This document shows, one piece after another, positions 42,206 through 48,200 of a stretch of 64,000 nt of DNA. Source of the DNA: Populus alba (Eukaryota; Streptophyta; Magnoliopsida; Malpighiales; Salicaceae); assembly GCF_005239225.2 (NCBI RefSeq), contig NC_133299.1:14619154-14683153 (forward strand), read 5' to 3'. How positions within the stretch are numbered: position 1 is the stretch's first letter; each line of letters starts with the position of its first letter. The notes below the pieces were generated by a model, which saw only the letters and a list, made by a program, of their open reading frames with translations, made no database searches and was not told where the DNA came from. The position numbers were made by a program, and so were the translations under genes.

Positions 42206-45200
42206 TTAAGAATCACTCCAGCTGTCTGAATCATCATCGTCATCGCTTCCAGTCAATGCCTATTTCAAAAGTAGACATCATAATTATTATATTCATGTAC
42301 ACAATCACACACAATAGTGAGAGAGACAGAGACAGACAGACCTGGCGAATTGCATTTGCTTTTTCTAAGATGGCAGCAACCTTCAAGTTGGTTTTTGGAC
42401 CCTGAACACCCTGCATGCTAGGCCTTGTCACGGTTGCGGGCTTCAAGTTAAAGGACTAGAGTGAAAAGGGGAGAGAAAACAAACATCAGTCCTCAACACG
42501 AAGGGGGTAATGCCACCAAGAGAGGAAAAAATAAATAAAAAGAAAATGCAGGATGGAACCTTGGTTCGTATCTGTTCCAGCAGTGAATCTCTTTCTTCTA
42601 GCTTGGGTCCCAGCTGTGGTCGAACTCGTTCAGCCACCTTTCTCAACTGCAAAAGGGTTCAAATCATCACAAAGAAGGGACTAGACAGCATAAGACATCA
42701 TAAAAACTGAATGCAAAGAAGAAACCACAGATAACCATTACCTTGCTTTTATCAAGAGCAGCAACAGCATCAATGAGAGGATTTCGAGGGCGAGGAATCT
42801 TCTTTCCATTTGTCTTTCCAACTTCATAGGTTGGTGGTGTCATCCCTAATGTAGTTGGCGGCCATATTGGCAGTCCATGTGAAGCTACAAAATCATGGTG
42901 ATGCTGCTCTTCTTCTGTATTTAGTGGTACTGCAGATTTACCAGAAGAATTCCCTTGTTCCCCTTCTGCATTTTGTGAACTCTGTCCGGGAAATTTCACC
43001 TCCAATCCTGTTTCGGGTGCTGATTGGTTAAATAGACGGATTGGGAGTCCCTGTGTAGGCATTGGATCATTTACAGCAGCTGTATCGTTTATGCCCGGCT
43101 CTAGTGAGAATGGATTGGAACTAAATTGCCTGGATTCTCCTCCTAGTTGAAGGAAACCATGCTCATGCCTCTCATCAGGCATTTCTGATAAAGCCAAAGA
43201 TGAGTTCACAGACTGTGTTCTGTCTGACAGGAGGTCATCCTGTTGATATTGTGCATCATTGTCAATGGTTGGCATTTCTGACAAGAGTGGAGTTGGCAGC
43301 AAGGAATTTCCCATTAACTCTGTTGTCAAGTGTTGAGACCTCTGACTGTCTTCAACAGGGAGAGACAAAAATGGGTTTGAAGGATGCACAATCTCTCTAT
43401 CTAATGCTGGGAAATCAAACTGGACCTTCTGATCAACAATAAATGTTTCAATTGGTTGAGAAGTGCGTTGACTATGATCCATCATGTCTCTGTCTGCATC
43501 AAGCGGACCAGGTTGAATTTTCCCCAACCTCCACTGCATAGGAGGTAGAGGTGGCAATGGTGGCATTGCCTCTGGATTGACCTGCCTTGTCTCAGGAACA
43601 GGAAGTACACCAAAGCTAGGAAAAGCAGAATCAAATGGATTTGTTGCTTGATCAGTAACATTACGTCCCTGACAGGCTGATTGCAGTAGAAACTCTTGAC
43701 TGGAGAGATCTTTCAAACTGGAAGGGTCAGGGCATCTTTCCTCGGTTATGTTATGCAGATTCTGTATCTGTTCTGACTGAACATCTGCTGATCTAGAACT
43801 TGCTTCGCCTGACTTCAAGCATCTCCTGTCTAGTTGATCAGATTGCAATTCTGATGTGTGATCCAGAGGAATTCCTGGCCCTAAAAGGTAGCCAGCAGAT
43901 GAAGTTTGACTACTCAACAAAGAACTTGCATCGTCTGCATGCATGGACTCTGCACTAATTTGATCAGCTTGCACCTCAATTGACTGTTCTAAACCATTTC
44001 CTGACTCTGGTGGATAACTGACAGGCGAACAAACAGTATTGTCACCAACCTCCCCACAATGACTCTGATGGTTATCTTTAGATTCAGACTCCTGGTTGCT
44101 CACTTCCGAAGAAGGGTTATGAACTTCAATTACCTCTTGATTTTGATAGTCTTCAGAAACTGGTTTGTATGAATTAGAATCCCAATCTGTAGAAGTCACT
44201 TCCATCTTTACCTGTGATTCTGACAGACATTTGGCAGAAGTTACCTCATCAAGGTTCAAAGTAGTCTGATTTGGATCCTCGGAGATTGAAAGAGATTCTA
44301 CCATCTCCGTAGAATTCCTAGGTGGGGAACAAACTAACTCTGAAGATGGACAGATCACATTGCTGACATCTTCATTGTTCACACCACTTGTAGCGGCAGT
44401 TGATACAGCCATATCTTCTGGTTTAACAGTTTCAGTTACATCATCAGCCAAATTTACATGATCTTCAGGAGTTGGTTTATCTGAACATGATTCATCTTCG
44501 AAAGAAGTAGCATCTCCTCTTGTAATATCCACCTTCTTCGTGAATGCATTCTTGTCCTCAGCATCTACACCACTTGTAGCAGCAGTTGATAAAGCCATGT
44601 CTTCTGCTTGAACAGTTTCAGTTACATCATCAGCCAAATTTACATGATCTTCAGGAGTTGGTTTATCTGAACATGATTCATCTTCGAAAGAAGTAGCATC
44701 TCCTCTTGTAATATCCACCTTCTTCGTGAATGCATTCTTGTCCTCAGCATCTACACCACTTGTAGCAGCAGTTGATACAGCCATGTCTTCTGCTTGAACA
44801 GTTTCAGTTACATCATCAGCCAAATTTACATGATCTTCAGGAGTTGGTTTATCTGAACATGATTCATCTTCGAAAGAAGTCGCATCTCCTCTTGTAATAT
44901 CCACCTTCTTCGTGAATGCATTCTTTTCCTCAGCATCTACACCACTTGTAGCAGCAGTTGATACAGCCATGTCTTCTGCTTTAACAGTTTCCGTTACATC
45001 ATCAGCCAAATTTACATGATCTTCAGGAGTTGGTTTATCTGAACTACATGATTCATGTTCGAAAGAAGTACCATCTCCTCTTGTAATATCCACTTTCTTC
45101 GTGAATGCATTCTTTCCCTCAGCATCTAAACCACTTGTAGCAGTAGTTGATAAAGCCATGTCTTCTGCTTGAACAGTTTCAGTTACATCATCAGCCAAAT

Positions 45201-48200
45201 TTACATGATCTTCAGGAGTTGGTTTATCTGAACTACATGATTCATGTTTGAAATAAGTAGCATCTCCTCTTGTAATATCCACTTTCTTCGTGGAAGCATT
45301 CTTTTCCTCAGCATCTGGACCCTCAGAAAGTTCTTCAAGTTTCACATTCTCTTCAGAACATGGGAGTCTTAATTTTGTTGAGTCAAGTTCCTCTTGTGAA
45401 GCATCTACTGTTACATCAGAGAATTGATGTTCGTTAATGCACTCAGACTCTAAAGTATCCACCACTGGTGTTGAAATTTCTGCGCTACCTTCCCTCGTTA
45501 AAATTTCATCATCCGCTTTAGAAACCAAACCATCAGGCTTCACAACATTTGAGTTATCAGGCAGAGATGGAACACCAGCATCCAACTCCACTACAGGCAA
45601 AGCTGAGTGAGGAAATTGCTCCTCTGCTGGTGTCAAAGTTGAATGTTCAGCTGCACAATCTGTTTGAAGCACTTCATTCACAGAATCATCACTGACTTTC
45701 TTTTCAGAAGCCAGATCTGACATGTTTGACACATGCACAACAGCATCAGTTAACATGTCTGGATCTTCATGATCAAACACATCCATAGAATGACTTTTAG
45801 AAGAATCTGGAAGTGAAGTATCATGCCCCATCTGTGAAGGGATATCAGTTAAAGCAACGAAAGAATCAGTCGGGTATAACCCATTTCTTTCACAGTGCAG
45901 TGATTTGGAGCCAAGTTCAGTACTGCCAGAGGATGCCTCGTCTAATTCAGGTCCTGACAAGGGGCTTACCATGGAACGTGCAACAGGAACTGAATGCAGG
46001 AAGACAGGATTCGAATCTGTAAGACAAGAACTACAAGAAGCTTCAACAGGATCAGGGATTTTGTCTTCCCTTGTATCATTGAATGTTACAAGGTGATGGG
46101 ATTCGGTTATGCCAGTCTCTGCATATACAGATGGATGATCTGATGGCAGATCAGTAACATTTGTTGCATGGTTTTCAGTAGAAGTGGCAGAAGGGAACCA
46201 TTTACCTGCTCCTTCACCATCAGATGCTGTATTCTCAACCAAATTGCAGAGAGTGTCAGAGTAAGAAAAGCTAGAAGTTCCTTTCTTAAACAAACTGTTC
46301 CCACCCTCAGACAGAGAAGAGTTTCCAATAGATTGAGAATCTGAAGAATTGGCTTGAATATCCAGCTGCTCCTCATTTGCATCAGAATCTGCACCTTGTG
46401 TCCTCAGATCGATGAAGTCCAGAGCATTTTTAGTTTTATACTCATTGTCTGTTTCCATTTCAGAATCCATGGTAGCAAGGGCATCCATGTAGTTTTCCAC
46501 TTCACTTCCCATATCATCAGAATGATCCCCATCTACAGTGCCCTCTCTTTTTATATCAGCATCGACTAATAATTCCTCTTCAATAGCCATCTTGTAGACA
46601 GTTGGAGGCAATTCATCCATCCCACGATCAACAATTGGGTCAAGTACCTTAATAATTCCACCATCAACACCCTCCCCATCCAACTCATCCTTAACAGGTT
46701 TAAGCATGGCCTCTTGTTCACTGGGTGATGAAGATGTGCTTTCCCCTCCATATAATGACTTTTTTGCAGGACTTACCACACTGACCTCATGTATTTCATA
46801 GCCTGATTCACTAGAATTATCCAATGTAAATTTCAAAGGTGATCGAGTGACAGAATCTTCACAAACTTGTTTACGCTCAGGTGAAGGAGTGAGCACAAAT
46901 TTCTCCATGTAACTTTTCCCAGGTTTCACATCAAATGGAGATTCATTTATCTGCCTTCTCTTCAATTTCACTAGCCGTGCAGGGTCAGAATGACCATTCT
47001 CAAAATGTTCCTGTAACAACAAGTCATGCAATCTGCATAATAGTAAAGCAGATTACTTCATTAATCATCCATGTTTGCTTGGGATTTTTGCAACTAAAGC
47101 ATGGATCTAATGGGGGGGAAAAAACACAAAGGCCTCACTTGGTGTGTGATGCTTGTACAACTTCAGGAGTTTCTCCATTTCTATACCGTGATCCTTTCTT
47201 CTGAAAAAAGATAACGAGGCAAATTATATCCCAAGCATTAACACATATGAAGATCATATCATGCAATGCTAAAAAGTGGGAGCAAATTCAAGTTACTGTG
47301 CTGATTGGAAAAAAGAAAATAACTAGGCTAGAAAAGTAAAATAAGCTTCTAGAACATTCAGCCTTCAGGCTTGAGATATGAAATACTGTTTTCTAAGACT
47401 GAAACAAATTGATTAAAAAAAGCGAAGCACCTGGTGCTCAACTCTACTGATAAACACATTCAAAGAACTGAGTGTTATCCAAATCCATATATGCATATTA
47501 TTCACTAACTACTATTCATATGAATGTGGCTTCAAGAACTCATAAAGTTTTTCAAGACATTGTGCTCACACATGACCATTTTAAGATTCACAGTTTGAGA
47601 AGAACCATTCTCTAACACCTCATGCATTCAGGGTTAATAGTAAGATTCAATGAAACCTATTCTTAATTAAACAAATGGAAAAGAAAATGAAGAATGAGAA
47701 GATTGTAAGGGTTAATCACCACACAGCAGATATATTCTATGTGCCGTATTATAATGATGACTGCTCATTATTTTATCACAGCTAAAGCTTTTCCATGACA
47801 ATCAAGCTACGAGAAAACTACATGATGCGGTGAGCTAAGGTCAGCATTTAAGTTCCACTAGTCCAATTAAACTGCAAACATGCAAAAATTGTGAAGGATT
47901 GCAACCACTTCTATACAACAAGGCCACCCTGCAGGCCAAAGAAAACTATTTGAAAGATAGGCAGCAGGTAGACTAGTTTGTTTGGTCAAATAAAAACTTT
48001 GGTTGAATCCTATGTTGGGGAACATTCACAAGAATATCCCTTCATTTGACACCAACAATATTGTGATCCTATATAGTGATGATCGTTTCACTACCTACCT
48101 TTTTTCGAATTTTCTTCTCCCTCTGAACCTCTACAGTTGCTATTCCAGAAGATGCTGTTTCAACTTTAAAGACTGATGGATCAGTATAACGCTTCAAACA

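Follow-up and report, generated by a model that had tools for sequence, protein, structure and literature searches.

How does one segment of a protein linker come to stand in five nearly identical copies, and what, if anything, do the extra copies do for the protein? The question is raised by a SCAR2-type SCAR/WAVE gene of Populus alba, located in a 64,000-nucleotide stretch of DNA (assembly GCF_005239225.2, contig NC_133299.1, positions 14,619,154 to 14,683,153; hereafter 'the window', numbered from its first letter). SCAR proteins set the sites of branched actin in plant cells, e.g., in root hairs, in leaf hairs and at microbial entry. In the poplar gene, the central linker of the protein contains a tandem array, of which we describe here the structure, the distribution among relatives, the age and the probable origin.

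An in-frame minisatellite in the SCAR linker

The array is an in-frame coding minisatellite, composed of near-identical tandem units, all of which are multiples of three nucleotides (189, 189, 186, 186 and 186 nt). It runs from 45321 to 44386 on the minus strand and corresponds to residues 782-1093 of the protein. When cut in codon phase, the five units are as follows.

45133..45321, minus strand: unit 1, 63 aa, 189 nt, type A, extra Ser kept
44944..45132, minus strand: unit 2, 63 aa, 189 nt, type A, extra Ser kept
44758..44943, minus strand: unit 3, 62 aa, 186 nt, type B (Ser codon lost, His to Asp)
44572..44757, minus strand: unit 4, 62 aa, 186 nt, type B
44386..44571, minus strand: unit 5, 62 aa, 186 nt, type B

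A first-pass annotation, made from the letters of this DNA alone, had reported five in-frame units of 62-63 residues at 44389-45324, which is indeed the same 936-bp array in another phase. It had also described the three left-hand units as equal in length and almost identical, and the two right-hand units as more diverged and retaining a Ser codon; both descriptions were found to be accurate. Units 3-5 are all 186 nt long and differ pairwise at 3, 6 and 5 of the 186 nt, while units 1 and 2, in which the extra codon is AGT (Ser), differ from each other at 12 of 189 nt and from units 3-5 at 8-15 nt. None of the units contains a stop codon.

Tandem Repeats Finder placed the array at 44381-45316, with a period of 186, 5.0 copies and 96% matches, and its score (1657) was the highest of the 60 rows obtained for the 64-kb window. 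In an ungapped self-shift comparison, the protein with the array scored 794, whereas the highest score among 528 block-shuffled SCAR sequences was 73, and the array is therefore not a product of chance. A search of the 416-Mb genome with the array DNA, which passes over very common words, returned only two places at E <= 0.001, namely the array itself on contig C16 and 191 bp, approximately one unit, on contig C6. The encoded sequence is strongly acidic, with 24% D+E, 9% K+R and a net charge of -48, single units carrying -8 to -11.

The gene that carries the array, the C16 copy, was modeled by hand at GT/AG sites and is laid out below.

42206..50235, minus strand: SCAR2-type SCAR/WAVE gene, 9 coding exons, 1725 aa
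50235-50081, 49075-48912, 48432-48309, 48225-48099, 47200-47139, 47032-42742, 42646-42560, 42455-42342, 42259-42206, minus strand: coding exons 1-9, in this order
48099..50235, minus strand: exons 1-4, bulk of the N-terminal SCAR homology domain (SHD), by match to human WAVE1
42742..47032, minus strand: exon 6, 4291 bp, encoding almost the entire central linker, including the array
46477..46518, minus strand: core of the conserved motif SPC1/WAM1 (DDMGSEVENYMDAL), aa 383-396 (motif from Table 1 of PMC3689024)
43519..43554, minus strand: core of the conserved motif SPC4/WAM2 (PPLPPMQWRLGK), aa 1371-1382 (motif from PMC3689024)
42206..42455, minus strand: exons 8-9, WH2-like helix (NLKVAAILEKANAIRQAL) and acidic tail with Trp (DDDDDSDSWSDS), as read from the sequence

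The gene model is intact, with no internal stops, and the large exon (exon 6) is an open frame from end to end. The 1725-aa product matched Populus tomentosa POTOM_052017 ('Protein SCAR') with 100% identity and 100% coverage. Residues 32-212 match human WAVE1 of the solved WAVE complexes (E 4.6e-10). Pfam scans of the large-exon frame, the N-terminal piece and the C-terminal piece of the protein matched no family, unlike the protein database entry for the product, which carries PF27569 and PF27560. The WH2 and the acidic Trp tail were assigned to exons 8-9 from the sequence and the general WA layout. On this basis, and by section 7 of PMC3689024, exons 8-9 read as the WA/VCA output module. Since the SHD, the WH2/acidic tail, SPC1 and SPC4 are all present, the protein is, as judged from its sequence, a plant SCAR/WAVE of the SCAR2 type, and it would presumably work in the usual manner, the N-terminal domain residing in the WAVE complex, the C-terminal WA module activating ARP2/3, and the linker lying between them.

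Within this linker, the array has the appearance of a translated, open and acidic insertion in a disordered region. AlphaFold2 (AF2) drew a beta-solenoid for the array, with a mean predicted local distance difference test score (pLDDT) of 65.9 and a range of 32-66 over the five models, and a single unit by itself had no predicted fold (predicted template modeling score, pTM, 0.14). Considering the low pLDDT, the pTM of the lone unit, and the known tendency of AF2 to produce spurious solenoids from perfect repeats (PMC11795689), a folded solenoid was rejected as a repeat artefact.

Unit number and age in the Salicaceae

A search with the array region matched 22 proteins at E <= 0.001 among 7989 scored candidates, and all the named ones belonged to the Salicaceae; the candidates were restricted to 0.55-1.75 times the query length and each row is a 90%-identity cluster, so that other lengths may be hidden. 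Fifteen of the 22 are of the chr16 type, with five (n=6), four (n=2), three (n=3) or two (n=4) units, and the remaining seven have a single unit. The five-unit arrays are those of P. tomentosa, P. alba x berolinensis, P. nigra, P. x canadensis, P. deltoides and one P. deltoides-like JGI contig. P. euphratica and one JGI contig have four units and three ENA contigs have three; two units were found in one ENA contig, Salix udensis, S. dunnii and S. suchowensis, and a single one in Dovyalis caffra and six chr6-type paralogues. The array thus differs in length between species, as the first-pass annotation had surmised, and the counts of 1 (Dovyalis and paralogues), 2 (Salix), 4 (P. euphratica) and 5 (other named Populus) support its idea of step-wise growth; they also exclude an array of five equally old units fixed throughout the family. 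Two entries of this set deserve separate mention. P0010, from JGI contigs, is a poplar SCAR exon with an array as in P. deltoides, and its source label, 'post-segregation antitoxin (ccd killing protein)', marks it as mislabelled plant DNA in a metagenome. In the P0012 model (S. suchowensis), the stretch right behind the array is missing and additional residues are present at the N-terminus relative to the other willows, perhaps through an annotation error.

In a tree built from the sequences without the array, support was 100 for the chr16-type clade, for each of its halves (Populus and Salix) and for the chr6-type clade, while several nodes inside Populus were weak (23-73). The junction between units 1 and 2 (ATS[GC]-[VL]DA...KNAF) is common to Salix and Populus, which argues for a single initial duplication in the chr16-type lineage, before the genera separated. 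Type B units, those lacking the Ser codon, are absent from Salix and number one in P. euphratica, two in the JGI contig with four units and three in the five-unit arrays, and these counts form a step-wise series.

Synonymous divergence (dS) was used to date the units. Outside the array (1102 codons), the chr16 and chr6 copies of this genome differ by a dS of 0.250 and a nonsynonymous divergence (dN) of 0.131, and the linker dN/dS between the two paralogues is 0.52. Among units 3-5, the pooled dS is 0.050 (bootstrap 0-0.123); it is 0.063 (0-0.139) between units 1 and 2, and 0.081 (0.027-0.161) between units 1-2 and units 3-5. The units are clearly younger than the chr16/chr6 gene pair, yet not fresh. 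The expansion had been called recent, which is at most partly supported: five units are common to P. tomentosa, the P. alba hybrid, P. nigra and P. deltoides, and the unit dS of 0.05-0.08 is about one-fifth to one-third of the 0.25 between the gene copies. Moreover, copying inside the array would lower the apparent age of the units. Such copying or homogenization, also proposed in the first pass, may be reflected in four alignment columns in which a species-private residue occurs in two units, namely units 4 and 5 of P. tomentosa, 3 and 4 of P. nigra, 2 and 4 of P. euphratica, and 1 and 2 of P. euphratica; these shared private residues suggest copying between sister units.

Several observations nonetheless weigh against a simple history of duplication followed by copying. 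Dovyalis is only loosely placed in the array-free tree (support 51). The dS values are based on about 41 synonymous sites per unit, and the bootstrap bounds for units 3-5 and for units 1-2 touch zero. Homogenization is seen weakly in the sequences, since type B units have on average 4.17 differences within a species against 4.56 between species at the same position. P. deltoides is off-pattern in this unit comparison, partly because a one-residue insertion displaced its last unit in the fixed-length cut. Lastly, unit 1 retains its own Pro and Tyr in the listed Populus arrays, and the turnover therefore does not reach every unit.

Origin of the segment and explanations for its multiplication

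The repeated segment is older than the array. A hidden Markov model (HMM) of the Salicaceae segment recognized 86 of 154 non-Salicaceae SCARs with a score of 8 bits or more, each time at the corresponding place of the alignment (reference positions 725-820), and 51 of the 154 with 15 bits or more; none of the 154 block-shuffled controls reached 8 bits (maximum 5.8). Thus, the repeated element is an old, weakly conserved acidic segment that is usually single. It is multiple in some other plants as well: the Rosoideae have copies of the Salicaceae-type segment of 60-68 aa (three in Rubus argutus, two each in Rosa chinensis and Fragaria vesca, with one in Prunus and Malus), and among the Fagaceae and their relatives, Quercus and Castanea repeat a 25-aa sub-part of it in approximately 5-8 copies, with one in Fagus and Carpinus. 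Two copies were found in Mangifera protein P0054 and three in P0074. The Rosoideae and Fagaceae junctions are unlike the Salicaceae junction, and this, together with the existence of single-copy relatives, argues for separate origins of these repeats.

The wider set consisted of 176 SCAR2-type proteins, taken as the best 120 of each of two overlapping searches; they are close relatives of two repeat-bearing queries and not an independent sample, as gene copies and isoforms (several of them from pea) are included; Arabidopsis is not represented in the set. By the ungapped self-shift scan (score >= 100), 108 of the 176 had an internal tandem repeat, with 163 repeat regions in total; outside the Salicaceae set the count was 93 of 154. 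Without exception, the 163 regions fall within the linker that separates the basic region from WH2 (reference 242-1416), with a single overlap at the SPC1 core and no overlap at the SPC4 core. The unit lengths range from 12 to 171 aa. Depending on the rule, the repeats fall into 46, 33, 15 or 6 origin clusters (all 163 regions), or 39, 27, 12 or 8 (the stronger 99), and there is no single count of origins because loose rules chain homologous segments. A cluster that united the Rosoideae with the Salicaceae repeats under the first rule was judged to be wrong. Long lineage-specific repeats of other sequence occur elsewhere in the linker, as in P0032 (Mangifera, 80 aa x 4), P0031 (Acer, 49 aa x 6), P0120 (Escallonia, 74 aa x 4) and P0060 (Juglans, 53 aa x 4). 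We tentatively suggest that in-frame tandem repeats arise again and again in the central linker of SCAR2-type proteins of eudicots, where one weakly conserved acidic segment was multiplied separately in the Salicaceae (62-63 aa, up to five), the Rosoideae (60-68 aa, two or three) and the Fagaceae (the 25-aa sub-part, up to eight), and that parallel shifts in motif number may tune SCAR activity or abundance.

For the poplar array itself, we consider it quite likely that one acidic linker segment of about 62 residues was duplicated on the chr16-type copy and that the resulting coding minisatellite was extended by exchange or copying, mostly as tolerated length turnover. The first tandem duplication would have taken place in the chr16-type copy after its separation from the chr6 type and before the Populus/Salix split. 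In Populus, the last unit would then have lost its Ser codon, and the array would have grown to about five units through unequal exchange and copying within the array, the latter also keeping the units alike. The reading frame would have been kept because each step was a multiple of three. In this permissive linker, selection would be weak and directed to frame and acidity, and any effect on the protein would more likely be exerted through the dose of the acidic motif or through protein abundance than through reach.

That the array could be a false expansion, or its shorter forms a collapse, in assembly is scarcely credible as an account of the array. Units 4 and 5 share 147 exact bp in the window, and short-read contigs can collapse over such a length, which may explain the two- to four-unit contigs P0007, P0011 and P0013-P0015. 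Outside the array, the four-unit JGI contig and the two-unit ENA contig hardly differ (support 98; branches 0.0025 and <0.00001); they would represent a length polymorphism if real, but may be collapsed assemblies. However, the five-unit form recurs with private differences in five named, separately assembled Populus entries on contigs of over 12 Mb, and two-unit arrays recur in three named Salix entries, and for the five-unit array an artefact is thereby contradicted. A gain of reach, proposed in the first pass, by which the WA module on a longer linker could act at a greater distance from the membrane complex, is very improbable. The linker is indeed longer, since the stretch from SHD to WH2 has 1455 residues in this protein, compared with 1175 for Dovyalis and 1182 for the chr6-type copy; by a scaling estimate, however, its mean end-to-end span would rise by only about 12%, from approximately 35 to 40 nm. 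Furthermore, length-matched glycine-serine (GS) linkers in Medicago SCARs failed to mimic the effects of segments, which ties function to sequence rather than to length (PMC12094195).

Adaptive tuning, in which extra units would alter the abundance, charge or binding avidity of SCAR and be favored in Populus, just as segment A lowers the abundance of API in Medicago, appears rather unlikely to us. It would agree with the wide recognition of the segment (86 of the 154 non-Salicaceae SCARs), with its separate multiplication in the Rosoideae and partly in the Fagaceae, with the frame and acidity retained by the units, and with the report that a short linker segment can control abundance (PMC12094195). 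Against these stand the high ratio of nonsynonymous to synonymous differences within the array (pN/pS, 0.042/0.067), the weak conservation of the segment, the many unrelated segments of the same linker that are also repeated, and the position of API segment A in legume relatives (reference 451-512), away from the array (756-815). As far as the sequences can tell, tolerated length turnover is thus the most likely account, followed by motif dosage or abundance, with reach the last.

A linker segment that exists in 2, 4 or 5 units within one plant family offers a natural dose series in which the role of linker sequence can be tested, and the clean series of 1, 2, 4 and 5 units, together with the parallel repeats in other plants, adds to the interest. 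The frequency of linker repeats among the 176 relatives suggests that SCAR may be a convenient case in which to ask whether repeats of this kind are noise or serve for tuning. The other features recorded in the window are listed below; the two FPN1 exons, about 4 kb apart, are likely a tandem gene pair.

8163-8666 and 12506-13057, minus strand: two ferroportin (FPN1) exons
31894-32487, minus strand: PADRE-domain protein
36458-38512, minus strand: PPR protein (intronless, 685-aa frame) that carries E and DYW deaminase domains
63307-63392: 44-bp unit in two copies, 92% matches (Tandem Repeats Finder)

Comparison with known systems

One of the closest parallels is segment A of the Medicago truncatula SCAR MtAPI, 42 aa (aa 510-551) in the central disordered region, which lowers the protein level; in Medicago, the disordered linker is reported to determine through its sequence what each SCAR can do (PMC12094195). 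Both cases involve gain or loss of a segment in the central disordered linker of a SCAR2-type protein, varying between gene copies, but no tandem repeat is reported for segment A in the excerpts of that article. In six legume proxies standing in for MtAPI, segment A maps to reference positions of about 451-512, and the poplar array itself lies at 756-815, so that the linker place does not match that of a destabilizing element of the segment A type. A 43-aa tandem duplication in P0077 (Quillaja saponaria, aa 462-555) lies at reference 455-506, about where the legume proxies of the 42-aa segment A map.

The array also shares its linker with the plant SCAR motifs WAM1-4/SPC1-4, of which SPC1 and SPC4 are present here (PMC3298513, PMC3689024); the repeated segment sits between these two and matches none of the four motif sequences listed in the portion of PMC3689024 consulted. 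No described tandem repeat in a plant SCAR was found in the excerpts of the open-licence literature. Long exons generally gather tandem repeats, in internal exons that code for disordered regions (PMC12457776), and exon 6 is similar to these, being a 4.3-kb internal exon that encodes a disordered linker with a tandem repeat. That survey, in contrast, is genome-wide and concerns exons of up to 840 nt, and the portions of it consulted do not treat SCAR. An in-frame repeat in a disordered linker is therefore of an already known kind, of which the array in this SCAR is a new example.

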